From the IMG/VR virus record IMGVR_UViG_3300034108_001154, positions 1 to 64,000 of that record: a DNA stretch of 64,000 nucleotides; one strand, written 5' to 3'. The stretch is from a virus. A model generated the notes under the pieces. That model worked only from the letters and a program-made list of their open reading frames with translations, was not told where the DNA came from and ran no database searches. Position numbers and translations under genes: made by a program. Positions 30,001-64,000 of the stretch are shown piece after piece (position 1 is the first letter of the stretch; each line of letters opens with the position of its first letter).

Positions 30001-33000
30001 CTTATCATCTTTACGTTTTACTGATAATAATGATTGGGATTATAATAGTTGGGCAGGATTAAAATTCATAAACGCATCTAAGAGAATTGTATTGGGTGTA
30101 GGGGGTAATGTTTTTACAGCAAACTCAGCACAAACTGGTAACTTATTGTTGGATAGAATTGATACAATGTATTTATTCGATACAACTTATTATTTAAACA
30201 CCGGTACTTCAAACTTAAACTCATTAACATTAGCTGGTAATTTAGTAGCAGCTCAAGTTAATACTGGGCAAGGATTAACCGAAGTTCATTTGATGAACCA
30301 AAATGTTAGAACTACTGATAGTGTAACTTTTGCAAATATAACTGGTAATACAATTTATGTAGGTGGTGGCACTACATATTTTATTAATAATGATATATCT
30401 CGATTAAATTATATAAATGCTAATGCTTTCGCACAAGAGCAAGGTAGTGTATTAAAAATAACATATCCAAATGGAGGTACATTAAATAATAGTACATCAT
30501 CCGTAACTGGAGCAATAAAGATACGACTTCCTCAATCGTGGACAAACACTATGATGGAGTTAAAAGTTCGTATTTACAATTATAGTGGAGATACTTATTG
30601 GGAATACTCAATGGGTGGATATAATTATTCACCATCAACATCTTGGATTAATACAAATGCAAGTGTTGCTGGGGCAGCTGGGGCACCTGCATATACTGTT
30701 AGATTTGCACATGATGGTACTTATTGTACAATATTCATCGGTGAATTAGCAACAACTTGGTCATACCCTAAAATAGTTGTTACTGAGTTTATTGGTGGAC
30801 ATTCAAACTTCGCTGTATCTCAATGGGATGGTGATTGGGCTCTATCATTTGAAACAACATCATTTGGTACTGTAACATCCACTAAAACTCCAACATTAAG
30901 AACTGGTAATTTTATAGCAGATGGTACAATAAGTGGTACATCGATAGATACTGGACAAGGTTCAACTGAAGTTCATTTAATGAACCAAAACATTCGTACA
31001 ACGGATGATGTTACTTTTTCTACGATAAGAGGTACTAATTTTAGAGCATCAAACGCGTATTACTTAGGTGAAAATAATTTTTATCTTAATTTAACAAATG
31101 GTGGTTGGTATTCTAATGTAAGGATTGCATCTGAAGTAGATATGAGGGCACCTATATTCTATGATACGGATAATACTGCATATTATACAAATCCTGCTGG
31201 ACTTTCTGTACTTAGCCATATCCAATTAGTAAATAACTGGGCTAACACTACTCCTAATGATGGTGCAATAAATATTAGAGGACAGTATCCATCTATGACA
31301 TTTAGAAATACTATATCCAATAATATGTGGTTAAGACATATGGATGGTAGTGGTGATATACAACATTATTTTGCATCTGGCGTTGATAGTACTTCTTGGA
31401 GTATAAGACACTCAATGTTTACAAATGGTAGATTCTTCTCAGCTGAAAGCATGAGAACACCAATATTTTATGATTCAGATAATACCGCATACTATTTAGA
31501 TGCAGCTAGTACTTCAAATATAAATGAAATAGTATCAGTAAGAGGGCAGTTTAGAAAAGCACAAACAAACAACAATTATACTACCGCTGCTTTATGGACT
31601 GAATCATATAGCACTACAACCACTGGTATTGCTTTTCACATTAGTGGTGTTGTTGGTAAGTATTTGGAAATGCGTACTGATGGTATTCTTTATTGGGAAA
31701 ATGAAAAAGTTTGGACAGGTAGTACAGATGGTGCTGGTTCTGGATTAGATGCAGATTTATTAGATGGTCAACAAGGGACATATTATGACCATAGAATATA
31801 TACTTCTACTGGAAATATTGCTGGTTCTTTTTTAGGAGGACATTATTCATCTGGGGGAACTGAAAAACCTAACTCAGCTACATTCGGAGCTGGTAAGTTA
31901 AAGGTAGCCATGCTTAGTAACGGAAACCTTGGATTTGGTGGAAGTTGGAATGATGTTCTATGGATGTCAACTTATAATGGTGGTGATGTTAAACAAAGTT
32001 ACGCAATTGTTGGAGATAAGTATGGTGATAACCTATGGTTCTCAAGACAAGCATTTGATTCTGCAACTTGGGGTACTGGTAGAAGATTGTGGCATAGTGG
32101 GGATACTACCATATCAACAACAGGTGATATGCGTTCTCCAATTTTCTATGATTCGGATGATACAACATATAGAATTGATGGAAATAGTACATCTGTTCTT
32201 AATAACTTAAATATTGCTGGAACTCTTACTGTAAATGGTACAATAAATTTAGGTAATGATTTCCAAATCGGTGATTATAAATATTTTGGAATCAATAACT
32301 TAGGTGCATCTGCAACTCAAGCTAGAAGATTTGAAGTTGCACGAATTGGTATTGATTTTAATGATTGGAACTCTGTTGGTTTATTTGAAGTTGAACTTTC
32401 GGAAAATTACTACGATAAAGGTTTAAGAAAAAGATATATAGTTTCTTATGGATATGTTTCTGCAGCATCAGTTCAATTAGTTGAAGCAAATGGTATAGGT
32501 TCAAATCACTTCCAAGTAACTATTGGTTCTGAAGTAGTTGTAAGTGGTGACCATAGATACATTCCTGTATATGTTGATGTTAGATATTACTCATCAGTTG
32601 ATGCTCTTATTAGAACTACACGAAGTATTACTACCAATACAAATAGTGCAATTGGTGCGGTTTATATTAACACATCACCTTCTGCAACTAACATTTCCGA
32701 TTTTACGGCAGATAGTATTGTATATCCAACTTCAGGTCAATTCGGTATTGCTGCACCAACATTCTACGATTCGGATAATACATCATATTATATAGACCCA
32801 TCTAATGGAGCAAATGGAATTTCTGCTAATTTACAGGGTAGAATTCAAGTTGGTACATTTAATAATTCTCAAACTAATACTGGTGAGGCTTGGATTGGTA
32901 GAGCATCTGATAGAGCAGCCGGTGTATTAACTGTACAATTAGGTGGTGGTGCAGGTAGATATTTAGAAGTAGTAGATAATGCTTGGACTACTGTTGAGTT

Positions 33001-36000
33001 TAGTGTAAATGATAGTGGTGTTGCTACTGCAGCAGCAAGTTTTAGAGCACCTATATTCTATGATTCGAATAATACATCATATTATTTAGACCCTACATCA
33101 ACAACATCGTTAAGAACTGTTGGTAGTTGGAGAAGTGATTCATCTACATGGGATGGTGAATTTAGTGGTAAGATTCAATATCATTCTAATAATTGGTATT
33201 TCCAAGCTGCTGGAGACTGGATTTGGAGAAATTCAGGTGGTAGTAACGTAATTTATGGTAACCAAAGTGGTGAATTGACTGCAACTGGGAACATGCGTTC
33301 ACCTATATTCTACGATTCTGATAATACTGGGTATTATACAAATCCAGCAGGAACATCTCGTATGAATGGAATTGCATTTGATGCAGCATCGCCTGTATAT
33401 AGTGTAACCGCTGGAACATCATATCAACAACATTTTCAAATTAGAGAAGCAGGTGCTAGTGGTGCAAATGGTTCGGCCATTGCATACGCACCATCAATTG
33501 GTTTCCATTGGAGTGGTGTAGTTGCATCCAATATTACAATGGAAGCAAGTGGTAGAATTTCAATAAGAAATAATCCGGGTACATCATATGAAAATTTGGT
33601 TGCTAACAATATGTACGCATATGCATTCTATGATGAAAATAATACTGGATATTACTTAGACCCTGCATCTACTTCTGTACTAAACGCAATTAGATTGGGT
33701 ACATCTGCAAATAATTCTACATTATCTGGAGCTGGTGATTGGGGTGTTAGATTTACTACAGACGTTGGATACATACAAATAGGACCTGCAAATAGTTCAT
33801 ATGCTCATATCTATACGGATAGAGGTAATTTCTATATGAACGTAAATGACCTTTATCTAAATGGAAACCTTGTACCCGCATTTGGATATAATAGAGGTAG
33901 TGGTAACTTATTTGCAGCAATTTATTATGATGCAAATAATACTAATTATTATATAGATGGAGCATCAACATCAAACCTAAATGATTTACAAACTGCGGGA
34001 AGAGTTGTAATTGGTGGTAACTTTAGTAATAACGCATACAATTCAGTAGGTTCTGCTAGATTACATTTTGGAGGAGGTAACTCTGATGCAAATGATAACT
34101 ATTACATAGGTACTAATATAGAAGGTTATGGTGGTTCATATACTAAATTAGATTTAAGATGGCATACTGGTATCCGTATGGGTGCACAACCTGGATATGG
34201 TGGTATTCGTTTTTATGATACTGAAGATTTAGGTACGCTTATATTCTCAATTGGTACTGGTGATGCACATGTTAGGGTAACTAATAATTTATATGTAAAT
34301 GGATACACTTATTTAGGAAATGGTAACGCTGATGAAACTCATATTAATGATACTTTAAGAGTTGGTGCAACCGATAGTGGTGATTCTCATTTCTATTTTG
34401 GAGAAGATTCATCATCTTGGTATGGTGACCATTGGTATTGGGATTCTGGATATAATGTTTATAGATATAGTAGATTCGCTGGAACTGATTCCCTAATTCA
34501 CTACCATGATACGAGAGATACTACTAGAATTACATATGCTAGAAATATTGTATTTGATGATTTCGGAAAAGGTATAGTTGGTAACTATTCAGCAGAGAGA
34601 TTACAATTGGTATTTGCTATGGGTGATTCATACAAACCAAATACGGCAGGTACATCAACGGCAAATATGTATGGTATTGGTTGGTCACATCCAAACGCAG
34701 GTGGATTAGGTGGAGCTAATAATCTTAATGACCACGGTTTATTGATTATCAATAATGGTACATTTAGAGCAGCAATTTCATCTAGAATTGTGGCATCTGA
34801 AGAAGTAAGAGGTACATTATTTAGAGATTACAATGATAGTGGGTATTATTTAGACCCTAATACAACTGGAATTTCTTTAAGAATAGGTGGAACTGTTCAT
34901 TCAGGTGGAGCATTTAGTAGTGATGGTTATTCATCATCATCACCAAACGTTGTGACACGAATAACTGCACCACAAGGAGCAGCATTTTCATCAGATGGTT
35001 CTACTGGAGCTATTAGAATTAAATTACCATTTAGGGGAAATAACCCTATGTGGACTATGAAGGTTCGAATTTATAATTACTCTACTAACCAAACATCAGA
35101 ATATCTATTAGGTAATTATGCTTATGACCAAGGTGGTTATAACTCATCTGCTACTTTTATAGGTGGAGCAAGTGCAACTGCACATACTGTAAGATTTGGT
35201 AATCAGGACGGAGTTGATTGTGTTTGGATAGGTGAAACAAATACTGGATGGAGTTATCCGGTAGTTAGTGTTATTGATTTTACATCTGGATTTAGAAGTT
35301 CAAACGCTGATTCACAATCTAGAAATTGGAATATAGCAGTAGTAACATCATTTGGTACAGTCCAAACTGCAATAACGCCTGAAATTAGATTATCTAATAC
35401 ATACGCTCCTACATTTAGAGCTGATACGGATATGAGGGCACCAATTTATTATGATACCAACACTGCGTATTATATAAATGGTGATGGTGCATCAAACCTA
35501 AATACTCTACAAACTTATTCATATCAAGGTAATGGTAACGTAGGTGGAACTGGAAACGCATCTTGGCATCCATCTGGTATCTATTCAGCTGGTTATAACT
35601 GGTTGTATGGTGGTATCAATATGAATGGTGGCACATTAGATGGAGCAGGTCCAATTTATGGTACTATATATTATGATAGAAATGATTCAGGATATTATGC
35701 AGACCCTGCATCAACATCTAATTTTTATAATTTAAATTTAACTGGAGCTAAACATACCTACCTTACTATAAACCCTGGTAACGGATGGGAAGCAATGGTT
35801 CGTTATATTGGTGGTAGTGGTAGTAGTTGGTATGTTGGTAAACGTACATCAACTCAATTGTTAGGTAGTACTGATGCATTCCATATGTATTCTGAAACTG
35901 CCGGTAGAACAGTTGGTGGATATGATACTGCTGGTAATCATTACGCATATGGTTCATCAAGAGCTACTATATTCTATGATATAGATGATACTACATATTA

Positions 36001-38794
36001 TATGAACCCCAATAGTAACACTTACTTATATGGTACATTTCAAGTAAATGGTGGACATGGGGATTCTCAAATTGGAGTTAGATTATTGTCTGGAAACAAT
36101 GGTGCTGGTGCAGGTGAAATTAATTTAAGAATGTGGGTATCTGAACCTGGTGTAACGTGGAACTGGGGTGGATTTGGATATAACGTAACTAATAATAATG
36201 GTTCACCAAACGGATTTGGTAGAATAAATACCGCACACGGACAGGCATATATGAGATTTAGTGATGGTGGTGATTTGTATTTCTATAATACAAATACATC
36301 TGGTACTAGAGTTACTAATATGGAAATGTATCCAAATAATACCGTATTATTTAACAACTACGCTACGGGTGGTAACTCATTAAGAGCACCAATATTTTAT
36401 GATTCGGATAATACGGGATACTATGGTGATTTTGCATCAACATCTCGTATAAACGCTATTAATTATGATAATTTATATTGGGCGGGAGATACGAGTTATG
36501 GTTTCATTGGTAGAAACGTATATGCTGATACTGTAAATGGTAGAGGTAGTGACCCGTTAGAATTAAACTATTATGATGGTGGTGATGTTTACATTGGACC
36601 TGGTGGTGGTAATAAAAATTTAAGAGCTAATCTTTACTATGATTATGCAAATACTGCATATTATTTAGACCCTAATGGAACTGCTAGATTATCATATGTA
36701 GTAGCAAATGGTGGTATCCGAATTGATGGAAATGAAAACCTTTACTTAGATAACAACTATGGACAATCAATTGTAGGTGTTTATACATCTGTTAGATATC
36801 AGGGTATATTTGCAATGGGTAATGCATATAAATTAGCAATTGATGGTACTGGTACTGGTAACTTATATGGATTATCTTGGTCACATCCTAATGCTGGAGG
36901 ACAAGCTGGATTCTTAAATGACCACGGTTTATTGGTAATGAACTATGGTACAACTTTTGCGGCAATATCATCACGTGGTTGGTTCAGAACTTCAGTTCAG
37001 GCACCTATATTCTATGATAATGATGATACTGGATACTATGGTAATTATGCAGGTGATAGAAGCACCAGCGTTAATGGATTTACCGCAAGAACAGTAGAAG
37101 GAACCAAAGGAACATGGAAATACAATATCCCAAGATTTATTCATACGGGCGACTCTAATTATTGGGTTGGAAGTATGGGTTGGGGTACAACTGACTTCAA
37201 CACTATGATGACATGGGGTAGTGGATTCATTGATTCTTGGTCAAACCCATCAAATCAACCATCTGGTACTTCACATTGGGTAGGTACTCAAGCATATCAC
37301 TACACCAATGCATACAATAGTGCATATGGTTGGCAGTTGGTAGGTGGTCCAATTGGAAATTTACGATTCCGTCAATCTTGGCCAAATGCTGGTACTTGGA
37401 GAACTGTACCTATGCTTGATGTGAATGATGGAAATAGTGGAGCAATGTATGCTGGAATTTATTATGATTCGGCTGATAGTGCATATTATGCAGACCCAGC
37501 ATCAACATCTCGTTTAAATATAACTAAGACTGCATTAAAAGCTCATAATGATATGAGTGGTTATGGAGAAGGAAACTGGGTTTCAGATTTCAATCGAACT
37601 CCAATAAGTTCATTTACGTTTGGTGAAGATAAATATAATGGTGGTCCATCTGGAACTTGGTGGTTCCAGGTAAATATGAGACATGCAAACTCAAGTAACT
37701 ATTGGGGAACTCAATTGGCATATGGATGGGAAGATAATGCAAATGAAATTTATCAAAGAAATATTACCGGAGGAAGTTTCAGCGGATGGGTTAGATATCT
37801 AAATTCAAACAACTATTCTGGTTATTCAAATTTCGGAACAGGTACAGTTTATGGTGGTATATATTACGATGGTAATAACTCTGGATACTATGGTGATTTT
37901 GCATCAACATCTCGTTTCAATACAACCATAACTGATACAACATACTTCGGTTCAGATACTAATAAAGGTAGAGCACAGGGATATGGTACTTGGTCAAATT
38001 CATTCCATAAAACGGCATACATGTCATTTGACTGGAACGCGAATTATGACACTTATTCAAATCATGGTATCGCATCTACTGATTTAAATGGTTCGTTTAG
38101 TGATTCGATGAGTATTAACTCATTTAATGATATCAACTTAAGATTAGATTCAAATGATAATAATGCAAACTCATATGTAAGAATACATGATAATACTACT
38201 GGCCAGTCAGTTTCCGTAGCATATATCGGACGAGAGAGTGGTAACCCTATTGCATATTTCAATAATAGAGTATATGGTAACGTATATTACCACAACAGTG
38301 ATACTGCATATTATTTGGCTCCGAATGGTACTTCCAGATTGAATAGAACAAACTATGATTATGTTTATTCTTATAACTGGGTTTACGCACAGGGTGATGT
38401 TATTGCATACTACTCTGATGAAAGATTAAAAACTAAAGTTGGTTCTATTGAAAACGCTTTAGATAAAATCTCTAAATTGAATGGATTCTATTATGTTGAA
38501 AATGATTTAGCAAAATCATTCGGATACAAAAACGAAAAAAGACAATTAGGTTTATCAGCACAAGAAGTACAAGAAGTTTTACCTGAAATTGTGACATTAG
38601 CACCATTTGATACGGAAACTGATAAAAATAATAATATTGTAGGTTCCAAATCTGGAGAAGATTACTTAACTGTAAACTACGCTAAAGTAGTTCCTCTTTT
38701 AGTTGAAGGTATTAAAGAACAAACCGAAATAATCAATTCTCAGCAAAAACAAATTGATGAATTAAAAGAAATGATTAAATCTTTGATAAAATAA
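27011..38794 (+). CDS. Giant 3927-aa tail fibre: collagen-like shaft, 18 FYDxDNTxYY repeats, S74 chaperone
   Basis: Residues 1-290 form a stalk with two GDGSN(L/I)T motifs. Residues about 295-816 are collagen-like GTS/GSS triplets. Next come TLNGTAPNATVESNLRFDG and TTTLNVGDNIITLNADIG segments and three copies of TGQGxTEVHLMNQNxRTxD. From about residue 1378 a tip region of roughly 2400 residues carries about 18 copies of a (F/Y)YDxxNTxYYxDPxxTSxLN motif, with variable, Trp/Tyr/Asn-rich receptor-type domains between. The C-terminus is a peptidase S74 intramolecular chaperone: YSDERLKTKVG, then LGLSAQEVQEVLPE, then a coiled-coil tail. By homology, autocleavage before Ser3802 (Ser3802/Lys3807) would release 126 residues after trimer folding. 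Probably the main host-recognition fibre. Confidence 0.85.
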   Translation: MKYAGKNPNGINQVSQSLLSVDVNGVQQLTVSTASLDINTKLSVTNGVLASSYTGSAFSGSKFVGSQFSGSFSGSFSGDGSNLTKIPFEGLTADAQSKIQSGDGTARISNNKLSINVNTDITGSLLTTGTVSASFLAGDGSNITNISAASIGDINRLKSGSATATISPNKGLEVNVGIVTEKYLGVSGSAQIAGNLNVDGTTTLKSLNVAGTITATELKTTYISSSIIFSSGSNKFGDQSSDTHEFTGSLRVKDTIQIPSYTSNPVSGKVGEIYYNTSDTNIYRWTGLIWEPAAGTAGTSGTSGTSGTSGTSGTSGTSGTSGSSGSSGASGSSGSSGSSGSSGTSGTSGTSGSGGTSGSGGSSGTSGSSGTRGTSGSSGTSGTSGTSGSSGSSGSSGTSGTSGTSGTSGSSGSSGFGSSGTSGSGGTSGTSGTRGTSGSSGTSGSSGTSGSSGISGSSGTSATSGSGGTSATSGSSGSSGSSGTSGSSGSSGTSGTSGTRGTSGTSGTSGTSGISGSSGSSGSSGTSGTSGISGSSGSSGSSGSSGTSGTSGTRGTSGTSGIDGVVGDGGTSGSSGSSGSSGTSGSSGSSGTSGTSGSSGTNSTAGTGGTSGSSGSSGSSGTSGTSGTSGSSGTSGSSGSSGTSGSSGSSGTSGTSGTSGINGLIGSSGTGGTAGTGGTSGSSGSSGTSGTSGTSGTSGTSGTSGTRGTAGSGGSSGSSGSSGTSGTSGTSGSSGSSGTSGTSGSSGTSGTSGSSGTSGTRGTAGSGGSSGTSGSSGTSGSSGTSGSSGSSGTSGTSGTSGTSGTSGSSGTSGSSGVLALTGTTDNGVITLNGTAPNATVESNLRFDGTTLAVTGNATISGDLTVSGTTTYINTTTLNVGDNIITLNADIGAATAPTENAGIEVKRGNAATKQFYWNESTDRWYADSDLQSAGNLYGTQIDTGQGLTEVHLMNQNVRTSDTITFARLNLTTTGNDYYFAANGLTMTSISTGETIWRNLSSLRFTDNNDWDYNSWAGLKFINASKRIVLGVGGNVFTANSAQTGNLLLDRIDTMYLFDTTYYLNTGTSNLNSLTLAGNLVAAQVNTGQGLTEVHLMNQNVRTTDSVTFANITGNTIYVGGGTTYFINNDISRLNYINANAFAQEQGSVLKITYPNGGTLNNSTSSVTGAIKIRLPQSWTNTMMELKVRIYNYSGDTYWEYSMGGYNYSPSTSWINTNASVAGAAGAPAYTVRFAHDGTYCTIFIGELATTWSYPKIVVTEFIGGHSNFAVSQWDGDWALSFETTSFGTVTSTKTPTLRTGNFIADGTISGTSIDTGQGSTEVHLMNQNIRTTDDVTFSTIRGTNFRASNAYYLGENNFYLNLTNGGWYSNVRIASEVDMRAPIFYDTDNTAYYTNPAGLSVLSHIQLVNNWANTTPNDGAINIRGQYPSMTFRNTISNNMWLRHMDGSGDIQHYFASGVDSTSWSIRHSMFTNGRFFSAESMRTPIFYDSDNTAYYLDAASTSNINEIVSVRGQFRKAQTNNNYTTAALWTESYSTTTTGIAFHISGVVGKYLEMRTDGILYWENEKVWTGSTDGAGSGLDADLLDGQQGTYYDHRIYTSTGNIAGSFLGGHYSSGGTEKPNSATFGAGKLKVAMLSNGNLGFGGSWNDVLWMSTYNGGDVKQSYAIVGDKYGDNLWFSRQAFDSATWGTGRRLWHSGDTTISTTGDMRSPIFYDSDDTTYRIDGNSTSVLNNLNIAGTLTVNGTINLGNDFQIGDYKYFGINNLGASATQARRFEVARIGIDFNDWNSVGLFEVELSENYYDKGLRKRYIVSYGYVSAASVQLVEANGIGSNHFQVTIGSEVVVSGDHRYIPVYVDVRYYSSVDALIRTTRSITTNTNSAIGAVYINTSPSATNISDFTADSIVYPTSGQFGIAAPTFYDSDNTSYYIDPSNGANGISANLQGRIQVGTFNNSQTNTGEAWIGRASDRAAGVLTVQLGGGAGRYLEVVDNAWTTVEFSVNDSGVATAAASFRAPIFYDSNNTSYYLDPTSTTSLRTVGSWRSDSSTWDGEFSGKIQYHSNNWYFQAAGDWIWRNSGGSNVIYGNQSGELTATGNMRSPIFYDSDNTGYYTNPAGTSRMNGIAFDAASPVYSVTAGTSYQQHFQIREAGASGANGSAIAYAPSIGFHWSGVVASNITMEASGRISIRNNPGTSYENLVANNMYAYAFYDENNTGYYLDPASTSVLNAIRLGTSANNSTLSGAGDWGVRFTTDVGYIQIGPANSSYAHIYTDRGNFYMNVNDLYLNGNLVPAFGYNRGSGNLFAAIYYDANNTNYYIDGASTSNLNDLQTAGRVVIGGNFSNNAYNSVGSARLHFGGGNSDANDNYYIGTNIEGYGGSYTKLDLRWHTGIRMGAQPGYGGIRFYDTEDLGTLIFSIGTGDAHVRVTNNLYVNGYTYLGNGNADETHINDTLRVGATDSGDSHFYFGEDSSSWYGDHWYWDSGYNVYRYSRFAGTDSLIHYHDTRDTTRITYARNIVFDDFGKGIVGNYSAERLQLVFAMGDSYKPNTAGTSTANMYGIGWSHPNAGGLGGANNLNDHGLLIINNGTFRAAISSRIVASEEVRGTLFRDYNDSGYYLDPNTTGISLRIGGTVHSGGAFSSDGYSSSSPNVVTRITAPQGAAFSSDGSTGAIRIKLPFRGNNPMWTMKVRIYNYSTNQTSEYLLGNYAYDQGGYNSSATFIGGASATAHTVRFGNQDGVDCVWIGETNTGWSYPVVSVIDFTSGFRSSNADSQSRNWNIAVVTSFGTVQTAITPEIRLSNTYAPTFRADTDMRAPIYYDTNTAYYINGDGASNLNTLQTYSYQGNGNVGGTGNASWHPSGIYSAGYNWLYGGINMNGGTLDGAGPIYGTIYYDRNDSGYYADPASTSNFYNLNLTGAKHTYLTINPGNGWEAMVRYIGGSGSSWYVGKRTSTQLLGSTDAFHMYSETAGRTVGGYDTAGNHYAYGSSRATIFYDIDDTTYYMNPNSNTYLYGTFQVNGGHGDSQIGVRLLSGNNGAGAGEINLRMWVSEPGVTWNWGGFGYNVTNNNGSPNGFGRINTAHGQAYMRFSDGGDLYFYNTNTSGTRVTNMEMYPNNTVLFNNYATGGNSLRAPIFYDSDNTGYYGDFASTSRINAINYDNLYWAGDTSYGFIGRNVYADTVNGRGSDPLELNYYDGGDVYIGPGGGNKNLRANLYYDYANTAYYLDPNGTARLSYVVANGGIRIDGNENLYLDNNYGQSIVGVYTSVRYQGIFAMGNAYKLAIDGTGTGNLYGLSWSHPNAGGQAGFLNDHGLLVMNYGTTFAAISSRGWFRTSVQAPIFYDNDDTGYYGNYAGDRSTSVNGFTARTVEGTKGTWKYNIPRFIHTGDSNYWVGSMGWGTTDFNTMMTWGSGFIDSWSNPSNQPSGTSHWVGTQAYHYTNAYNSAYGWQLVGGPIGNLRFRQSWPNAGTWRTVPMLDVNDGNSGAMYAGIYYDSADSAYYADPASTSRLNITKTALKAHNDMSGYGEGNWVSDFNRTPISSFTFGEDKYNGGPSGTWWFQVNMRHANSSNYWGTQLAYGWEDNANEIYQRNITGGSFSGWVRYLNSNNYSGYSNFGTGTVYGGIYYDGNNSGYYGDFASTSRFNTTITDTTYFGSDTNKGRAQGYGTWSNSFHKTAYMSFDWNANYDTYSNHGIASTDLNGSFSDSMSINSFNDINLRLDSNDNNANSYVRIHDNTTGQSVSVAYIGRESGNPIAYFNNRVYGNVYYHNSDTAYYLAPNGTSRLNRTNYDYVYSYNWVYAQGDVIAYYSDERLKTKVGSIENALDKISKLNGFYYVENDLAKSFGYKNEKRQLGLSAQEVQEVLPEIVTLAPFDTETDKNNNIVGSKSGEDYLTVNYAKVVPLLVEGIKEQTEIINSQQKQIDELKEMIKSLIK
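27893..29458 (+). repeat. Collagen-like Gly-X-Y block C
   Basis: About 520 residues of Gly triplets, mainly GTS and GSS. Rare GSGG, GTRG, GFG, GIDGVVGDGG and GTNSTAGTGG segments punctuate the run. Unlike block B there is no fixed superrepeat. Codon choice for identical triplets is scrambled. Confidence 0.9.
31147..38340 (+). repeat. About 18 copies of FYDSDNTAYYLDPxxTSxLN
   Basis: The motif recurs at 70-250 residue spacing along the tip half of the last giant fibre. It always precedes an N/R-rich turn and a new beta-rich segment. Variants include YYDANNTNYYIDGASTSNLN and YYHNSDTAYYLAPNGTSRLN. It probably marks trimer joints between exchangeable binding domains. Confidence 0.85.
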
Positions 38795-56044: not shown

Positions 56045-56866
56045 ATGTTAGTTAAAAAAGGTGATAATAACGAAAATGTAAAAAAATTACAAGCAAAATT
56101 AGGTTTAACCGCTGATGGAGTTTTTGGTGCTGGTACTGAATCAGCTGTAAAAGCTTGGCAAACAAAAAATGGATTAACTGCTGATGGTATCGTTGGTGAT
56201 GCTACTTGGGAAAAGATGGGATTGGGTGCAAGTACTCCAACTCCTTCTGTTGCTGTACCAGCATCTTCATTTAAATTGGCAGCTCTTAAAGGACACGTTC
56301 CTGATTCTGTAATTGCTCAAATTCCAGACACTGCTTCTAAATTCAATATTACAACTCCTCTAAGATTAGCTCATTTCTTAGCACAATGTGGACACGAAAG
56401 TGGTGGATTCAAAGCCGTTACTGAGAATGTTAACTATTCAGCAGATGGATTAGTAAAAATCTTCGGAAAATACTTTAATTCAACAACTGCAGCTGCATAT
56501 GCTAGAAACCCTGAAAAGATTGCATCTAAAGTTTACGCATCAAGAATGGGTAATGGTGATGAAGCATCTAAAGACGGATTTAAATTTCGTGGACGTGGTT
56601 ATATTCAATTAACTGGTAAATCTAACTATACTAACTTCGCTAAATTCATTGGTGAAGATACTGTTGCAAATCCTGATTTGGTAGCAACTAAATATCCATT
56701 AGCTTCTGCTGCATTTTTCTTTGATTCAAATAAACTTTGGTCTATTTGTGATAAAGGTTTTGATGATGCTACTGTAACATCGGTAACTAAAAGAGTAAAT
56801 GGTGGTACTATTGGATTAGCTGATAGAATCAAACACTTCAAAGAATACTATAACTTATTAAAGTAA
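56045..56866 (+). CDS. Endolysin: peptidoglycan-binding domain plus GH19 muramidase/chitinase-like domain
   Basis: A 273-aa protein. Residues 1-60 are a PG_binding_1 domain (KKGDNNENVKKLQAKLGL, DGVFGAGTESAVKAWQ, DGIVGDATWEKMG). A Pro/Ser/Thr linker follows (about 61-75). Residues 85-273 are a glycoside hydrolase 19-type lysozyme: LAHFLAQCGHESGGFKAV with the likely catalytic Glu, then FRGRGYIQLTGKSNY and SAAFFFDSNKLW. No signal peptide, so release across the inner membrane would need a holin. A holin-like gene lies at 60443. It cleaves the sugar backbone of peptidoglycan at the end of infection. Confidence 0.9.
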   Translation: MLVKKGDNNENVKKLQAKLGLTADGVFGAGTESAVKAWQTKNGLTADGIVGDATWEKMGLGASTPTPSVAVPASSFKLAALKGHVPDSVIAQIPDTASKFNITTPLRLAHFLAQCGHESGGFKAVTENVNYSADGLVKIFGKYFNSTTAAAYARNPEKIASKVYASRMGNGDEASKDGFKFRGRGYIQLTGKSNYTNFAKFIGEDTVANPDLVATKYPLASAAFFFDSNKLWSICDKGFDDATVTSVTKRVNGGTIGLADRIKHFKEYYNLLK

Positions 56867-56876
56867 TATGGGGGTT

Positions 56877-56894
56877 GGTTTATTTAACTAAACC
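56877..56894. terminator. Weak hairpin between convergent genes
   Basis: GGTTTA-TTTAAC-TAAACC at 56877-56894 overlaps the stop codon of the minus-strand gene and lies 11 nt past the endolysin stop. Six-base stem, no T-tract; it may act on either strand, but evidence is thin. Confidence 0.3.
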
Positions 56895-57335
56895 ATAATA
56901 TTCTATATTCTTAAGTGCGTTGTTAACCAACCAAGGTTCTACATTAGGTATTTTTGATAGGAATTCCAATTCATAATGATATGCTAATATTTCCTCATAA
57001 TTCGGAGGTAATTTTATGTTATGCTTTAAATAAAATAAATGTTTAGATTCATGCACTAATATAGCTGCTATGTTATTTATTGAATTAAACCTCATATCTT
57101 TTTGGGATATCATTATGGTAACTGAATCTTCTGTTGTTGAAAAATCACCATCCCAATAGGTGATATGTTTACATACATCATTAATTAATTCATATTTATT
57201 AGGGTCAACTTGTTTTATTAGTGATAATGAAGTAGCTACCTTTGCTTTCCAATTATCACCAACATCATCGATTTTAATTTGTGAGTAACAATCAAACACA
57301 AATAAAAAATTAATTAAAAGTAGAATCAGTTTCAT
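56880..57335 (-). CDS. Secreted HExxH-type metallopeptidase-like protein
   Basis: A 151-aa protein, the only gene on the minus strand. Residues 1-18 are a signal peptide (LILLLINFLFVFDCYS) with Gln19 as the first mature residue. The zinc-site motif HESKH (His95, Glu96, His99) lies in NIAAILVHESKHLFYLKH, followed by an acidic helix (NYEEILAYHYELEFL, Glu114/115/122) that could supply the third ligand, as in gluzincins. It is small for a peptidase, with about 130 mature residues. It is convergent with the endolysin gene and divergent from the T9SS-type gene. It might degrade envelope protein at lysis or act on peptidoglycan peptides; Lys-rich tail. Substrate unknown. Confidence 0.65.
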   Translation of the reverse strand: MKLILLLINFLFVFDCYSQIKIDDVGDNWKAKVATSLSLIKQVDPNKYELINDVCKHITYWDGDFSTTEDSVTIMISQKDMRFNSINNIAAILVHESKHLFYLKHNIKLPPNYEEILAYHYELEFLSKIPNVEPWLVNNALKNIEYYGLVK

Positions 57336-57413: not shown

Positions 57414-59318
57414 ATGAAAAAACTATTATTTTTACTGCTGGTATCATTAGTACCAATCTTTGGGTATTCACAAACTTGCCCAACGCCAACAACTTCTGGT
57501 GTTTTTATAACACTTGATTCAAATTATTTAGCTGGTACGGTAGCTGAAGGTTATACTAATGTAGGACTATGTTTTTACAACAATACAACAACTGATATAA
57601 CAGCATTTCAGTTTAGAGTTTATTATGATACACAAGCTTTCACTGGGGTAGACACACTTACTACATTGAATACAACATTTTCTCAGAACCTAAAATATGT
57701 TGATAATCCGGCTGCTGGTTATGTAACTGTCACAATGACTTATACTGGTAGTTCATCTACTTTTGAAATTCCAAATGGACCAATTGTTCAGTTGAAATTA
57801 ACTCACGTAGCTGGATTTGCATCATTATCAACTATTGCTGATATGTCATTTGGAGCGGTAACTTATCCAGCAATTGCATCAAAGCAAAATGGTATGGATA
57901 ACGCACTTACATTACAAAACTTTGGTGGTAATATTATACCTCAAACAATGTCTTATCATGGTAAATTTAAGAACGTAACTGGAACAGCTGCTAAGAATTT
58001 AACTGTAGCTTTAGAAAAGAAACTTAGACCAAGTGGAGCTTGGACTCAGGTTACAACTGATATGACTGATATAAATGGTGACTTTGCATTTAATGCAATT
58101 GCAATTGATACAACTGGTTATGATGTTAGATTAAAAATACAGGGAGATACGTTATCAGTTGGTAATGTAATATCTACGGCAGATGCACAAAGAGTACAAG
58201 ATTATGTATTAGGTACACAAGCACCAACTGGATTTGATTTTTACGCATCGGATGTTAATGGTGATAATGGTTTAAGTATATCGGATGCATATGGTATATT
58301 TGGTAGAATTTCTGGTAGATTCACCGCATGGCCTAATAGTGTTCAAAATGTAAAATTCTTTACACAATCTGAATATACTACTATTAATGGCTCAACAACC
58401 AATTATACATCAACAATTCCTGGTGTAACTAACTTTACGTTTAATATTGTTGCTGGACAACCTGATTCGGTTACATTCTATGTATTAGTACCGGGTGATG
58501 CAAATGGAACGGGATATCGTATGGCACGTATTACTCCAATTGAGGTTTTAGTAGGACCACAACCTGGCGTTCCATCTCAAATTTACAATGTAATTGATGC
58601 TAGGGTAGAATATGATTTTCCAACAACTTCAATTGAAGTAAATGTTCCAACATTATCAGTTCAGGAAGGTAATTTAGTTAATATACCTGTAAAGGTATTA
58701 ACAAATGGTACTGAGGTTGGTTCATTACAATTTGGATTAAAATACAACGATACTCTATTGGAATTTAAAGGAATTGAATCGAAATCAGCTACTTCAAGTT
58801 GGTTAACATATTTGAATACTAATAATAATGAAATTTCTTGGGGTGGATATGATATTAGTGGTACACATATAAAACCATTAAGAGATGGTGATGATGTTGT
58901 AACTTTAAAATTTATTGCAAAAAGACCTCAAGACCAATGGAGTACAAGTCCTCTTTGGACTACTAACAAATACGCTGGTAACAATCAATGTGTTGATTTA
59001 AGTATCACACCTACAAATGGTATTATACAGGTATTTAGAATGGCAAATGTTACTATTGATGAAATAGAGGGTATGCAAATATTCCCTAACCCAACTGATG
59101 ATTATGTTAACGTAAAATTTGAAGTTAAAGAATTTGGACCGGTTAGGTTATCAGTATATGGTCTTAATGGTATTGAATATAGGGTAGTAGTAAATGATAA
59201 TATGCCTGAAGGTAATTACCAATACCAAGTTAGTTTAGGTAACTTAATTCCAGGTGTTTATGTTGCAGTTCTTAGAAAAACTACCAATAACCTATCGAAA
59301 AAAATTATATTAAGATAA
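57414..59318 (+). CDS. Secreted protein with cohesin-like and dockerin-like domains and T9SS sorting domain
   Basis: A 634-aa protein. Signal peptide KKLLFLLLVSLVPIFGYS, then Gln. Residues about 28-185 and 400-540 look like cohesin-type beta-sandwiches (VEGYTNVGLCFYNN; NLVNIPVKVLTNGTEVGSLQF). Residues about 250-302 are dockerin-like, with a full EF-hand loop DVNGDNGLSISDAYGIFGR and a weaker first half (STADAQRVQDYVLG). The last 81 residues (554-634) are a type A T9SS C-terminal sorting domain: MQIFPNPTDDYVNVKF, LSVYGLNG, LIPGVYVAVL and the terminal KKIILR. By family knowledge such proteins cross the outer membrane through T9SS and are anchored on the surface or released. A phage gene of this kind implies a surface role during infection. 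The protein also shares its dockerin plus FFTQSEY region with the last gene of the window. Confidence 0.85.
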   Translation: MKKLLFLLLVSLVPIFGYSQTCPTPTTSGVFITLDSNYLAGTVAEGYTNVGLCFYNNTTTDITAFQFRVYYDTQAFTGVDTLTTLNTTFSQNLKYVDNPAAGYVTVTMTYTGSSSTFEIPNGPIVQLKLTHVAGFASLSTIADMSFGAVTYPAIASKQNGMDNALTLQNFGGNIIPQTMSYHGKFKNVTGTAAKNLTVALEKKLRPSGAWTQVTTDMTDINGDFAFNAIAIDTTGYDVRLKIQGDTLSVGNVISTADAQRVQDYVLGTQAPTGFDFYASDVNGDNGLSISDAYGIFGRISGRFTAWPNSVQNVKFFTQSEYTTINGSTTNYTSTIPGVTNFTFNIVAGQPDSVTFYVLVPGDANGTGYRMARITPIEVLVGPQPGVPSQIYNVIDARVEYDFPTTSIEVNVPTLSVQEGNLVNIPVKVLTNGTEVGSLQFGLKYNDTLLEFKGIESKSATSSWLTYLNTNNNEISWGGYDISGTHIKPLRDGDDVVTLKFIAKRPQDQWSTSPLWTTNKYAGNNQCVDLSITPTNGIIQVFRMANVTIDEIEGMQIFPNPTDDYVNVKFEVKEFGPVRLSVYGLNGIEYRVVVNDNMPEGNYQYQVSLGNLIPGVYVAVLRKTTNNLSKKIILR

Positions 59319-59392: not shown

Positions 59393-59716
59393 ATGTCAGA
59401 AGAAACAAACGCACCCGAATCAGAAGGAACTTGGTCAGGTTTAAAGAAAACAATTATTGGAACTCTATCAACTGCTGTATTAGCAGGTGGAACTTGGGTT
59501 ACAACAACTCTATTTAATGGTGGAGATGATAAAGAAGAAACTAAAACAGAACAAGCTGCTCCAGCTGCACCTGTAATTATCAATCTACAAAATAATAACA
59601 CTAATCAACAAAAACAATCGGGTGGTACAAATACAATTATTAAAGAAAAAACAATTGTAGAAAAACCTGCACCAGCTGCAGCACCTGCTAAACCAAAAGA
59701 AGAGGATTCTTGGTAA
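59393..59716 (+). CDS. Small single-span membrane protein with Ala/Pro-rich tail
   Basis: A 107-aa protein. Acidic N-terminus (SEETNAPESEGTW), one likely membrane segment at residues about 20-40 (TIIGTLSTAVLAGGTWVTTTLF), then an acidic stretch, an Asn/Gln-rich part and a PAPAAAPAKPKEEDSW tail. Its size and topology would suit a spanin- or holin-like lysis protein, or a scaffold for the CsgG-like pore encoded 2 bases downstream. No family recognised. It starts after a 74-nt gap that contains the hairpin at 59323. Confidence 0.6.
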   Translation: MSEETNAPESEGTWSGLKKTIIGTLSTAVLAGGTWVTTTLFNGGDDKEETKTEQAAPAAPVIINLQNNNTNQQKQSGGTNTIIKEKTIVEKPAPAAAPAKPKEEDSW

Positions 59717-59717
59717 T

Positions 59718-60437
59718 ATGAAAAAATTAATATTAATAATTTCTTCAATTTTATTATTTTCTATTGTTAGTAATGCACAAACAATTGGAACTATTAAAAC
59801 CGAAGAATATAAAGCTGATTTTGAAAAAAAACAATCTATTGCAGTTGTAGGTGACTATGATGGTGATATCGTTTTACCAATTCAAGTTTTAAAAATTGGT
59901 ATTAACGAAGAACTTTACGAAATGTATCCTGAGTTAAAGGATAAGAGAGTTGGGCTTGGTGTTGCTAATATTGTTTTAGAATTCTTAGAGTCAACAGATA
60001 GATTTAAGTTTACTGAGGACCGTGAGGAGATTAAACAAAAAATGATTGCACAGGATAAGGCATCTGATAAGGGTATATCAAGTAATAAGATAGAAGTGAA
60101 GGGTAATGTTATTTTAGCAAAATACTTCGTTTATATTGAGGTATATGACTTTTCAGTATCCGAAGATGAACAAATCAAAATGACTGATGGTTCAAAAACA
60201 ACTCAAACAACTCGTTTGGGTTTACAGGTTAGATTCGTTGATGCTGAAACTGGTGAAATTATTACCGGTAGTGGTTTGGGTGAAGCAAGTACAGTTAAAA
60301 CTGCATCATTATTAGATGGTGTTGATGACATTAAATTTAACCAATCAACTATTGGTATATCAACTAAGAAAGCTCTTGAAACTGGAGCATCTAGAGTTGT
60401 TTCAAAAATGATTAAAAAGGGAATATTTAAAAGTTAA
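59718..60437 (+). CDS. CsgG-family outer-membrane secretion pore protein
   Basis: A 239-aa protein. Signal peptide KKLILIISSILLFSIVSNA, then Gln, not a lipobox Cys as in curli CsgG. The mature part follows the CsgG order: RVGLGVANIVLEFLESTDRF-FTEDREEI, GNVILAKYFVYIEVYDF, TTRLGLQVRFVDAETGEII-GSG, and ISTKKALETGASRVVSKM. CsgG forms a nonameric pore that exports curli subunits. This copy is shorter than E. coli CsgG (277 aa) and may lack part of the membrane barrel hairpins. It lies 2 bp after the membrane gene and 5 bp before the holin-like gene. Possible jobs: exporting a phage product, permeabilising the outer membrane, or forming a superinfection block. Confidence 0.75.
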   Translation: MKKLILIISSILLFSIVSNAQTIGTIKTEEYKADFEKKQSIAVVGDYDGDIVLPIQVLKIGINEELYEMYPELKDKRVGLGVANIVLEFLESTDRFKFTEDREEIKQKMIAQDKASDKGISSNKIEVKGNVILAKYFVYIEVYDFSVSEDEQIKMTDGSKTTQTTRLGLQVRFVDAETGEIITGSGLGEASTVKTASLLDGVDDIKFNQSTIGISTKKALETGASRVVSKMIKKGIFKS

Positions 60438-60442
60438 ATATA

Positions 60443-60805
60443 ATGGGCAAAATAAGTGAATTTTTCGGTGGTAAATCTGATTATGTTAAAGTAGATGATA
60501 AAAATCGTTTCTATTTTATGTTGCAACAAATGCAAAATAATCGTTGGAGAATTACCGCAATTATATTAGGGTTATTTACCTTAATTATTGTTGGAATCAA
60601 CTCTGGTGTATTTTTTGGTGTAGAAATTGGACAAGACTGGAAAGAAATGTTATTAATTTTATTAGGTGCCTTTGTTGGTAACTTAAATAAAGTTATAGAT
60701 TATTGGTTCAACTCTGAAGATAGAGACAAAATGTTAATCCAAAAGGTAGATGAAGAGGATGGCGTATCTTTATCTAATACATTGGATTCGCAAGATGAAA
60801 ATTAA
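60443..60805 (+). CDS. Two-span membrane protein, holin-like
   Basis: A 120-aa protein. Two hydrophobic segments, about residues 33-55 (ITAIILGLFTLIIVGINSGVF) and 68-85 (EMLLILLGAFVGNLNKVI), are linked by a short loop. The charged C-terminus (YWFNSEDRDKMLIQKVDEED) would be cytoplasmic. The L-L-G-A-(F/L)-(V/I)-x-x-x-x-K-V-I-D-(Y/F)-W-F motif is reminiscent of small phage holin-like proteins. It could release the signal-less endolysin encoded at 56045, or it may be a partner of the CsgG-like pore. Its last 11 nt overlap the next gene. Confidence 0.5.
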   Translation: MGKISEFFGGKSDYVKVDDKNRFYFMLQQMQNNRWRITAIILGLFTLIIVGINSGVFFGVEIGQDWKEMLLILLGAFVGNLNKVIDYWFNSEDRDKMLIQKVDEEDGVSLSNTLDSQDEN

Positions 60806-62012
60806 AAAACTTTTAATAACAATAAGTTTTTTGTTCTCTACTATGGTGGTGTTAGGACAAGGGTTCTCATATACATTTACAGACCCATGTACCTTAAAAT
60901 CCAAAGATATTTTTATTAATAGCCCAAATGGTAGCGTATCATTAATATATTCTGGGCAAATTCAAAGTTTTACTCAAACACAATTACAATCCGGTGCATT
61001 AGAAAGTTGGATTAATCAAGTTAATGCGAGTAATCCGCAAGGTTCCGGCCCTTGTGGTGGTGTTGGTATAGCACAAAGTACCAATTTAAATGTAACGGTT
61101 GCAGCTAATAATATAGCAGTGTTAACAAGCGTTATGTCAACCATGTCATCACTTTCATCTATAAGTGGAGCAGCTGGTTCAGCAATACAAGGTACAGTTC
61201 AGAGTAATGAAAAAGTCGCATCTAACGGCAATAAATCAGATGATAAAAATGGTACATCTGGTAGTTCATCGCAATCAACTAAATCAAAAGGAGAATCGGA
61301 AGAAAAAACAGGTGAAGAAAAAGCTGAAGAGGCTGTATCATCTTCATCATCTAATTCATCTCAGGTTAAAGCTAAAGTAGCAGCTGTTAAACGTGGTAAT
61401 ATTATGATGACTGGTGATATTGTTACTATATCAAGTGCTTCTGGTAATGAACCACAACAACTTAAAATTAATATGAGTTTTATCACATCAAATACTGAGA
61501 ATACATTTGCTAAAGGGGCTTTGGTAAATTATACTACTGCAATTGATAATTCTTGTATAACACTATTTGCAGCTTGGAGACGTAAAAACTTAACATCAAT
61601 AGTTGCAAATTCATCTATGTTGAATTTTGAAAAGGATTATTTTAATACAACATCGATAATGGAATCGTATAAAATAAAAAAAATAACAGCAACGTTGGGA
61701 GTAAATTATACTACTGGTAATATTGGTGAATCCAAATTCCAAAGTTTATCAACTTTAGGCGGAGTTGTTGGTAATTTCGATGTAGGAAAAAAAATGAGTA
61801 CTACATTGATGTTTGTTACAGTATATTCACCATTTGTATATTATTATGAAGGCATGTGGTATCAATCGGGACTATTAGCAGTTCCATTTGTTGCAATTGA
61901 TTACAAGCTAACTCAGAAATTTAAAATGAACATCAGTTTTAGTGGTGTTCAACAATTTAAGAGTGATGCTATAAACTACCAAGTATTACTTGGTGCTAAA
62001 GCACTTTTATAA
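60795..62012 (+). CDS. Exported protein with linker and putative outer-membrane beta-barrel
   Basis: 405 aa from ATG 60795; an upstream in-frame ATG at 60750 would add 15 residues before the signal peptide, so it is not preferred. Signal peptide KIKKLLITISFLFSTMVVLG, then Gln. Residues about 25-140 are a Ser/Gly/Asn-rich domain with CTLKSKDIFINSPNGSVSL and a PCGGVGIAQSTN segment. Residues about 145-195 are a Lys/Glu/Ser linker. Residues about 200-405 alternate polar and aromatic strands (ITATLGVNYTTGN, TTLMFVTVYSPFVYYY, LLAVPFVAIDYKLTQKFKMNISFSG) and end LLGAKALL, as in outer-membrane barrels. It overlaps the holin-like gene by 11 nt. Function unknown; a barrel partner for the CsgG-like pore is an inference. 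Confidence 0.65.
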   Translation: MKIKKLLITISFLFSTMVVLGQGFSYTFTDPCTLKSKDIFINSPNGSVSLIYSGQIQSFTQTQLQSGALESWINQVNASNPQGSGPCGGVGIAQSTNLNVTVAANNIAVLTSVMSTMSSLSSISGAAGSAIQGTVQSNEKVASNGNKSDDKNGTSGSSSQSTKSKGESEEKTGEEKAEEAVSSSSSNSSQVKAKVAAVKRGNIMMTGDIVTISSASGNEPQQLKINMSFITSNTENTFAKGALVNYTTAIDNSCITLFAAWRRKNLTSIVANSSMLNFEKDYFNTTSIMESYKIKKITATLGVNYTTGNIGESKFQSLSTLGGVVGNFDVGKKMSTTLMFVTVYSPFVYYYEGMWYQSGLLAVPFVAIDYKLTQKFKMNISFSGVQQFKSDAINYQVLLGAKALL

Positions 62013-62013
62013 A

Positions 62014-62463
62014 ATGAAAAAATTATTATTACTATCTTTGATGTTAATCACATCATTAACTTATGGACAAAAATGCTACACTGTTAAAAATGTAGAGAGT
62101 CTTGCTAAAATTGAAAATATAAATCCTAAAAGATTTACATTAGGTGTTAAACAAATAACTGAAGAAATTCTATCTGAAAAATATAGTATATGTGAAGATG
62201 GTGAATCAGTAATGGTTGTTGTTAAGAGTATTGAGGCACCTACAACAAGTATTTCAATTGGACCATTTGAAAAGAAAAGAAAAGTTACTATTGTGACTGT
62301 TGATTTAATTATTAATGGTAAAGTATATACTGGAATTGGTGAAAGTAAGACTGATGTAAAATCTACATTTATTGAATTGCAAGATGAAAATATTCCATTT
62401 GAAAAATCAGCGTTTTCAGCTGCATTAAAAAAATCATTAATAAGTGCTATTAACCAAATGTAA
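62014..62463 (+). CDS. Small secreted protein, unknown, CsgG-module partner
   Basis: 149 aa from ATG 62014, one base after the barrel stop; an upstream in-frame ATG at 61990 lies inside the preceding gene and would spoil the signal peptide. Signal peptide KKLLLLSLMLITSLTYG, then Gln. The mature part holds KRFTLGVKQITEEILSEKY, SVMVVVKSIEAP, KVTIVTVDLIINGKVYTGIGES and FEKSAFSAALKKSLISAI. The strand-helix order weakly resembles half of a CsgG domain (strand with NG-K-x-x-G followed by a final helix). It could be a periplasmic cap or accessory subunit, like CsgE or CsgF, but similarity by eye is weak. Confidence 0.6.
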   Translation: MKKLLLLSLMLITSLTYGQKCYTVKNVESLAKIENINPKRFTLGVKQITEEILSEKYSICEDGESVMVVVKSIEAPTTSISIGPFEKKRKVTIVTVDLIINGKVYTGIGESKTDVKSTFIELQDENIPFEKSAFSAALKKSLISAINQM

Positions 62464-62464
62464 T

Positions 62465-64000
62465 ATGAGAAGATATCTCACCCTGTTATTATTAATAATA
62501 TCCAATATTGTATTTGCTCAAACATTTACATATTCGGGTTATATGTATAATGCGGGTGGATTACCAGCTCAAAATGTTGCTGTAAAATTATATAAACGTA
62601 CTACACCAACTCTTACTGGGTTTACATCACAAACCAATTATAACGGACACTCTTACTATCGTTCTACTGGTTCAATGACTTGGACTAATGCAAAGGTTGC
62701 TTGTGAAAATATGGGAGGTCACTTAGCTACCGTATCTAATTCAGCTGAGAACAATTTCTTATTTAATACATGGCCATCTGGTTGGATTGGATATTATCAA
62801 GATAGAGTTTCTGGATATACTTATTCGGAAGCAGCTGGTGGATTTCGTTGGACAGAAACTAAAGTAACTGATGGATTGGTTGCTGATTATGATGTTTCTT
62901 CTTATACATCAGGAACCACACTAACTGATATTGTATCTGGTATTAATTCTACATTATACAATACACCATCATACTCAAGTACTGGTGGGAAATATTTAAC
63001 ATTCAATGGAACTAATCAATACGCAATAACAAATAATTTAGCATCCAAATTTTCGAATAATAAAATAACTATAATGGCTTGGATATATCCAACCGGAAAT
63101 GGAGTTATATCATCGGAATTAGGTGTTGGTAGTCCTACATCAGGTTGGCATGAATCAATAATGGAAATCACTGGAAGTAATACCCTTAGAGTTGGATTTT
63201 GGAATGGTAGTGGAATTACTCAATTAAGTACATCTATTACATTAAACGCTTGGCATTTGGTTTCTATTACTTATGATGGGGCATCAATGAAAGGATATTT
63301 AAATAATGTAAATTTTGGAAGTACTAATTTTACTAGAGATGTTCCGTATGTGTATTCGGGAAACGGACAATATTTCGCATTTGGATTAAGTGATGTTACT
63401 AATATGGGTTCTGGAGCTTATGGTAATTTTAGATTAGGTGATTATCAAATATTCAATAGAGCTATAACAGCCGATGAAATTGATAGAACATATAACTTAT
63501 ATGCATATCGATATAAATTAAATCAATACACAAATTGGAATTCCGGAGAACCTAATAACTCACCCAGTGAAGATTATACACAATTTGTTACAGGTGGTAA
63601 ATGGAATGATTTAGGAAATACATCTTTACCTTATGTTATAGAATTTGATTATATTAACGATTTTACTCCATGGGTTTTACATCAAACAGTTTATACTAAC
63701 TCTTCTGGATATTATTCATTTTCTCAATCAACCAATCCAGCAACCGAATGGTATATTCAATATGATATTCCAACACCTACAACACAACTAAGTACCAGTG
63801 ATATTAATTCTATAATGTACAAAGTTATTAGTAATTCATTTAATGGATTAGATTATTATAAGTACGATGTAAATAATGATGGTGAAGTAACTGTATCTGA
63901 TGTTTATTATATTCATATGAAAAAAGTTGGGATGAAATCTATATGGGAAAATTCTTTACCAAATGTTAGATTATTTACCCAATCACAATATAATATAATA
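62465..64000 (+). CDS. Secreted C-type lectin protein split by a LamG domain, with dockerin-like end (partial)
   Basis: 512 codons from ATG 62465 to the window end, with no stop. Signal peptide RRYLTLLLLIISNIVFA, then Gln19. A short carboxypeptidase-regulatory-like strand region (FTYSGYMYNAGGLPAQNVAV) precedes the first half of a C-type lectin fold (about 60-135: WTNAKVACENMGGHLATVS, WIGYYQD, FRWTE). Residues about 137-345 are a LamG/concanavalin-like insert (YLTFNGTNQYAI, TIMAWIYPTG, WHLVSITYDGASMKGYLNN). The lectin then resumes (YTNWNSGEPNNSPSEDYTQF, KWNDLG, LPYVIEF), including EPN and WND calcium/sugar motifs. The end holds a dockerin-type loop (YDVNNDGEVTVSDVYY) and VRLFTQSQY, paralleling the T9SS protein at 57414. 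It probably binds glycan on the cell surface. Confidence 0.8.
   Translation, partial: MRRYLTLLLLIISNIVFAQTFTYSGYMYNAGGLPAQNVAVKLYKRTTPTLTGFTSQTNYNGHSYYRSTGSMTWTNAKVACENMGGHLATVSNSAENNFLFNTWPSGWIGYYQDRVSGYTYSEAAGGFRWTETKVTDGLVADYDVSSYTSGTTLTDIVSGINSTLYNTPSYSSTGGKYLTFNGTNQYAITNNLASKFSNNKITIMAWIYPTGNGVISSELGVGSPTSGWHESIMEITGSNTLRVGFWNGSGITQLSTSITLNAWHLVSITYDGASMKGYLNNVNFGSTNFTRDVPYVYSGNGQYFAFGLSDVTNMGSGAYGNFRLGDYQIFNRAITADEIDRTYNLYAYRYKLNQYTNWNSGEPNNSPSEDYTQFVTGGKWNDLGNTSLPYVIEFDYINDFTPWVLHQTVYTNSSGYYSFSQSTNPATEWYIQYDIPTPTTQLSTSDINSIMYKVISNSFNGLDYYKYDVNNDGEVTVSDVYYIHMKKVGMKSIWENSLPNVRLFTQSQYNII

Follow-up and report, generated by a model that had tools for sequence, protein, structure and literature searches.

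A phage protein with a type IX secretion sorting domain and a cohesin belongs to a conserved CsgG-like gene cassette of Bacteroidota phages

Proteins that carry a type A sorting domain of the type IX secretion system (T9SS) are expected to reach the surface of their Bacteroidota host. What, then, is such a domain doing at the end of a phage protein? The question is raised by IMG/VR virus record IMGVR_UViG_3300034108_001154, a sequence of 143,445 bases whose first 64 kb (positions 1 to 64,000) form the stretch analyzed here, called the window; positions below are those of the window unless the record is named. Both a head-tail adaptor and a tail sheath (phrog_23, E=1.8e-72) are encoded in the record, which thus belongs to a tailed phage; a search for tRNA genes gave none. 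The gene in question spans exactly 57414-59318 on the + strand and encodes a protein of 634 amino acids, here named the scaffold, and a T9SS domain was found only this once in the whole record. Contamination or a chimeric assembly was rejected as the source of the gene, since ten other viral contigs, including one of 270,865 bases, encode an identical protein, and the synteny is kept in many divergent ones.

The only cultured phages with a relative of the scaffold are the Flavobacterium phages immuto, whose host is Flavobacterium sp. LMO8. A search of a species-genome collection of ∼85,000 genomes for the gene cassette to which the scaffold belongs gave just two relatives, each on a phage-like contig in a Bacteroidota metagenome-assembled genome (MAG). 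A host-side origin was therefore rejected and the cassette is taken to be phage-borne.

Several other features of the record were recorded along the way. Two giant ORFs lie in the window at 12952-24936 (3994 amino acids) and 27011-38794 (3927 amino acids); across 20-24 kb and 28-30 kb their GC rises locally to about 0.45, probably in repetitive tail-fibre regions. At about 87-102 kb of the record there is a long run of genes that, by their sequences, resemble glycosyltransferases and other sugar-related enzymes. MIxLKxLINEA-like leaders are found on unrelated proteins at record positions 106154, 107131, 126457, 126870, and 127619, as well as at an internal start of the ORF at 105803, and recall the leader that targets T4 internal head proteins to the capsid. 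GroES-like and GroEL-like genes are adjacent close to the record's end (139149-141053).

The scaffold is modular, and all of its modules are encoded on the + strand. It starts with a predicted Sec signal peptide of apparent Bacteroidota type (residues 1-19, 57414-57470), MKKLLFLLLVSLVPIFGYS, which would leave Gln20 as the mature N-terminus. A signal peptide followed by Gln had been proposed from the letters alone; it is present, and Gln20 is invariant among 36 aligned relatives. Next come an N-terminal beta-sandwich that profile and model liken to the cohesin fold (residues 21-172, 57474-57929), a beta module of X/CNA-B or transthyretin-like type outlined by AlphaFold2 (AF2) strands (residues 173-245, 57930-58148), for which the immuto homologue gives a weak transthyretin match, and a dockerin-like module (residues 246-312, 58149-58349). 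A linker or small beta module with the conserved motif FFTxSEY...VPGDxNGTG in alignments (residues 313-406, 58350-58631) leads into a Cohesin domain (residues 407-540, 58632-59033), and the protein ends in a T9SS type A C-terminal sorting domain (CTD; residues 556-634, 59079-59315). No PHROGs family was found for the scaffold. Its AF2 model has a mean pLDDT of 65, and the top Foldseek matches were the Clostridium thermocellum scaffoldins 4fl4 and 3kcp, followed by many type I cohesins.

A profile search, the check proposed along with the sequence-only reading, recognized the sorting domain with both curated models. Por_Secre_tail (PF18962) scored 38.1 bits over residues 556-632 against a cut-off of 27, and the NCBIfam model TIGR04183 scored 26.6 bits against a cut-off of 23; the AF2 model shows seven strands in this domain. 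The TIGR04183 cut-off was also passed by all ten of the diverse CTD-bearing relatives, and the P-x-P motif and basic C-terminal end are kept in 53/53 CTD-type members. On the host side, the T9SS translocon gene sprA is present in 41/41 genomes of the genus of a Flavobacterium MAG (G002), Flavobacterium being the host of the cultured relatives, and in both MAGs with a copy of the cassette, G002 among them. Taken together with the signal peptide, the 72 distinct loci that carry a CTD, and the Flavobacterium relatives, this lends good support to the earlier proposal that the phage would hijack the host T9SS to export the scaffold.

The earlier reading had also described two cohesin-like sandwiches and an EF-hand dockerin loop, and here the profile scores separate what curated models confirm from what is resemblance only. 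The second sandwich matched Cohesin (PF00963) at 41.8-43.2 bits over residues 407-540 (cut-off 24.1) and was matched to type I cohesins by Foldseek. The first reached only 12.9-13.2 bits, although it is a confident beta-sandwich in the model (pLDDT about 90), so that its likeness to cohesins is one of fold. In the dockerin-like module, the second Ca loop is intact, with ligands D280, N282, and D291 invariant in 57/57 proteins of the same one-chain form, and the top PDB sequence match of the module's profile was the ScaB dockerin 4uyp_B (E=0.00047, residues 245-309). However, Dockerin_1 scored 19.3 bits over residues 252-292, under its cut-off of 22.9, and the first Ca loop is degenerate, starting with Thr and missing its ligands. 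We therefore rejected a dockerin proper. Thus the T9SS domain and the second cohesin stand on curated models, and the first cohesin and the dockerin are resemblances.

A further dockerin had been placed near 63,860. The loop is real, at 63863-63904 in a lectin gene of the same cassette, but it is weak (14.9 bits against the same Dockerin_1 cut-off of 22.9). Across all 143 kb of the record no other dockerin match was found, and neither of the two is on an enzyme. With one curated cohesin and two dockerin-like loops, none of them on an enzyme, a cellulosome scaffoldin was rejected; likewise, the idea that the protein assembles with host cellulosome-like parts found no support, as the record has no second cohesin gene and no dockerin-bearing enzyme.

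To judge whether these modules matter to the phage, we turned to selection. The pooled dN/dS of scaffolds in the one-chain form was 0.108 over 17 independent close pairs; across all moderately diverged pairs it was saturated. By module, dN/dS was 0.061 for the dockerin-like module, 0.110 for the cohesin, and 0.129 for the CTD, with a range of 0.06-0.13 over all modules. All modules of the scaffold are under purifying selection, the dockerin-like module most strictly. Because selection acts on every module and all ten relatives exceed the TIGR04183 cut-off, the modules exceed what chance would give.

The scaffold does not travel alone, a point that the earlier reading missed along with the exchange of CTD and lipoprotein described below. 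Using the CsgG-like protein encoded downstream and a divergent relative of it as queries, we collected 80 loci each, with some contigs common to both sets. The scaffold gene lies upstream of the CsgG gene in 142/142 loci with at least 3.5 kb of upstream flank, at a median distance of 660 bases (distinct CsgG proteins), and three further genes, p107, p157, and p420, are present at all 105 loci with flanks of 6 kb at both ends. The same downstream set of p107, CsgG-like protein, p420, and p157, with a C-type lectin nearby, is shared by immuto and the window. In the window, all on the + strand, p107 (59393-59716) has one transmembrane segment and a long Pro/Ala/Gln-rich tail and is probably periplasmic; p420 (60795-62012) is a secreted protein with a low-complexity middle and a beta-rich, outer-membrane-like C-terminus, for which no curated family was found; and p157 (62014-62463) is a small secreted protein. 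Between the CsgG-like gene and p420 lies h120 (60443-60805, + strand), a small protein with two transmembrane segments that is holin-like by shape alone, gave no Pfam match, and occurs in 42/55 loci of the one-chain form. Two genes often adjoin the cassette: an endolysin with PG_binding_1 and GH19 domains (56045-56866, + strand) and p151m (56880-57335, − strand), a small secreted protein found upstream or downstream of the cassette. The HExxH motif of p151m is kept in 26/26 distinct homologues, so that it is probably a secreted zinc peptidase, though of no recognized family.

The CsgG-like protein itself (59718-60437, + strand) carries a signal peptide with Gln at position +1. A CsgG profile search found no PDB relative by sequence, so a fold comparison was required. 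In its AF2 model, which is of moderate confidence (pLDDT 66), the best 20 Foldseek PDB matches were all CsgG (4uv2, E=2.3e-9), and the predicted fold is thus that of CsgG. No Pfam family was recognized in the window protein, and Pfam CsgG matched 2/46 relatives, with a best E of 0.0012. A lipobox-like N-terminus is present in 34/117 of the CsgG-like proteins. No cellular CsgG was found in the two cassette-bearing MAGs.

The lectin gene starts at 62465 on the + strand and runs through the end of the window at 64000 to position 64138 of the record. Profiles place in it a C-type lectin domain (Lectin_C, 38 bits) interrupted by a nested Laminin_G_3 domain (57 bits), besides the dockerin-like loop; immuto_13 is the uninterrupted form. 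Judging by its EPN and WND motifs, the lectin may bind mannose-type sugars in a Ca-dependent manner, and alignments show in it a motif related to the FFTxSEY...VPGDxNGTG of the scaffold. In immuto, the lectin adjoins a gene whose secreted product is a non-specific DNA/RNA endonuclease. Endonuclease_NS proteins with signal peptides (71-93 bits) are encoded at 128480-129079 of the record (L004:13780-14379), at L018:9935-10513, and at L137:16041-16625; in the periplasm, such an enzyme could destroy the DNA of superinfecting phages.

Comparison of the loci revealed three architectures. In the fused type, as in the window (54 distinct loci), the scaffold is one chain of 627-669 amino acids. In the split type (18 distinct loci, including immuto), two genes, each with its own signal peptide, encode the halves: the first (363 amino acids) has the N-terminal sandwich and the dockerin-like module, and the second (243 amino acids) the cohesin (36.7 bits) and the CTD (TIGR04183, 44.8 bits). 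In the lipoprotein type, seen at 45 distinct loci, a scaffold of mostly 574-602 amino acids stops after the cohesin and is followed by a lipoprotein of 117-123 amino acids with a sorting-domain-like fold. A CTD is thus found at 72 distinct loci and the lipoprotein at 45, with no locus having both and none having neither. Fisher's test gives an extreme result for this exchange, but the loci share ancestry: on a tree of 117 CsgG proteins, well-supported branches require no fewer than two changes to account for the exchange, and one change accounts for the split. Hence the independent evidence amounts to two events, not 117. The lectin goes together with the CTD, adjoining 51/55 fused and 16/16 split loci (67/71 of CTD type) and 0/34 lipoprotein-type loci; in one fused subclade that lacks the lectin (L164), its place is taken by a secreted GEVED-domain protein.

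The commonest Pfam match of the lipoprotein family is Por_Secre_tail itself (18/42, best E=0.0021), with the lipoprotein attachment site second (11/42), and in profile comparison the family aligns to the phage CTDs with a probability of 77%. Based on these matches, the sorting domain appears to have moved between scaffold and lipoprotein.

In the reading that we favor, and judge reasonably likely, the scaffold is a phage-made T9SS cargo that forms the backbone of a secreted envelope assembly altering the infected-cell surface. It would be made with a Sec signal peptide, cut before Gln20, and its sorting domain would pass it to the host type IX translocon and on to the cell surface. There, the cohesin and dockerin-like modules probably tie it to the lectin, the CsgG-like protein, p420, p157, and p107. 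We infer such contacts from the fusion/split pattern and the shared modules, and assembly of the cassette proteins by cohesin-dockerin pairing is plausible: a second dockerin-like loop is found only in the cassette's own lectin, and the lowest dN/dS is that of the dockerin-like module of the scaffold. Against it stand the sub-threshold score and missing Ca loop of that module, whose remaining loop is degenerate in the split clade. Since sister lineages place a small lipoprotein with a sorting-domain-like fold beside a scaffold without a CTD, attachment to the outer membrane, and not a given route, seems to be what is conserved. Two points weigh against T9SS export: the CsgG-like protein may offer a second export route, and, as the lipoprotein-type scaffold lacks a T9SS signal, a CTD-like domain need not have an obvious sorting function in this cassette, so that the CTD could be a structural holdover. 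The purpose would be to change the cell surface while infection proceeds, with the blocking or occupying of phage receptors, or adhesion of cells and progeny to sugars, as the most likely aims; remodeling of this kind fits the presence of both a lectin and a T9SS domain.

Alternatively, the cassette could serve as an accessory to lysis. The scaffold, pinned to the outer membrane by its CTD or the lipoprotein, would open or weaken that membrane together with p420 and the CsgG-like protein, and with holin and endolysin the cell would burst. A lysis role has been proposed for the phage CsgGF of methylophage Melnitz and pelagimyophages (PMC9004378), h120 is a small two-transmembrane protein within the cassette, and an endolysin is near 34/34 lipoprotein-type and 37/55 fused-type loci. 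At L114:3199-5603 and similar lipoprotein-type loci, the cassette comes directly after a holin-like gene (in L114 a weak match, phrog_1299, E=0.005), a spanin-shaped protein with one transmembrane segment, and an endolysin; in these lineages the position indicates lysis as much as surface display. However, an endolysin is near only 3/16 split-type loci, where the cassette sits among replication genes, and a T9SS-exported scaffold with lectin and cohesin is no obvious lysis part. For the cassette as a whole we think this explanation unlikely.

A more speculative extension, to which we give about the same low credence, is an extracellular cohesin-dockerin polymer, in which head-to-tail units, or split halves, would carry lectins and reach the surface through T9SS, the lipoprotein, or a CsgG-type pore.

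The adhesins of the Flavobacterium gliding machinery are T9SS cargo, so interference with T9SS display is a further possibility: abundant phage cargo would fill the translocon, host adhesins such as SprB would go undisplayed, and with the receptor gone superinfecting phages would be excluded. Flavobacterium phage receptors are thought to be part of the gliding machinery (PMC7345892) and the phage does make a T9SS cargo, but the conservation of the cohesin and dockerin-like modules, the CsgG linkage, and the CTD-less lineages are left unexplained, and we consider this quite improbable. Lastly, the CTD could have been kept as an Ig-like, purely structural domain in a periplasmic complex, with its export use lost and any secretion passing through the CsgG-like pore; a related domain on a lipoprotein without a recognized sorting signal at 45 distinct loci speaks for this, but the P-x-P motif and basic end in all 53 CTD-type members and scores above export-tuned cut-offs make it very doubtful.

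How does the favored surface assembly compare with known systems? With T9SS type A cargo (TIGR04183/PF18962) the scaffold shares a Sec signal peptide, a CTD with the usual motifs, and surface-type modules, but it is phage-encoded, sits in a fixed phage cassette, and has a sister form that swaps the domain for a lipoprotein. Cryophage also encodes proteins with T9SS type A sorting domains, reported as a unique occurrence (Bellas et al. 2020, PMC7468147); its cargo are variable endoglucanase, GH39, and PA14 genes, whereas here one conserved scaffold occurs with CsgG, lectin, and envelope genes. CsgG modules have been reported in marine phages, namely the curli CsgG/CsgF modules of pelagimyophages and methylophage Melnitz (PMC9004378, PMC9599517), which have in common with the present cassette a CsgG-fold protein. 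Here, in contrast, CsgF and CsgA/B were not recognized, the phages are those of Bacteroidota, and CsgG occurs together with a lectin and a T9SS/cohesin scaffold. Cellulosomal scaffoldins (C. thermocellum CipA, 4fl4, 3kcp) likewise combine cohesin, X-like, and dockerin-like modules in one chain, but the phage protein has a sub-cut-off dockerin with one Ca loop lost, one curated cohesin, no dockerin-bearing enzymes, and a T9SS tail. We did not find this combination, its multi-lineage conservation, or the CTD/lipoprotein exchange in Bacteroidota phages in the open-access papers searched, and the set of cassette genes is apparently undescribed.

These results make a T9SS export tag a conserved trait of a large group of Bacteroidota phages, tied to a CsgG-fold gene set. 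If the polymer existed, these phages would swap entire secretion and anchoring routes while retaining one surface machine. The clean exchange of T9SS domain and lipoprotein is a natural experiment on what the sorting domain is for and, since the cultured immuto phages have the cassette, its role in surface remodeling, exclusion, or lysis is directly testable.
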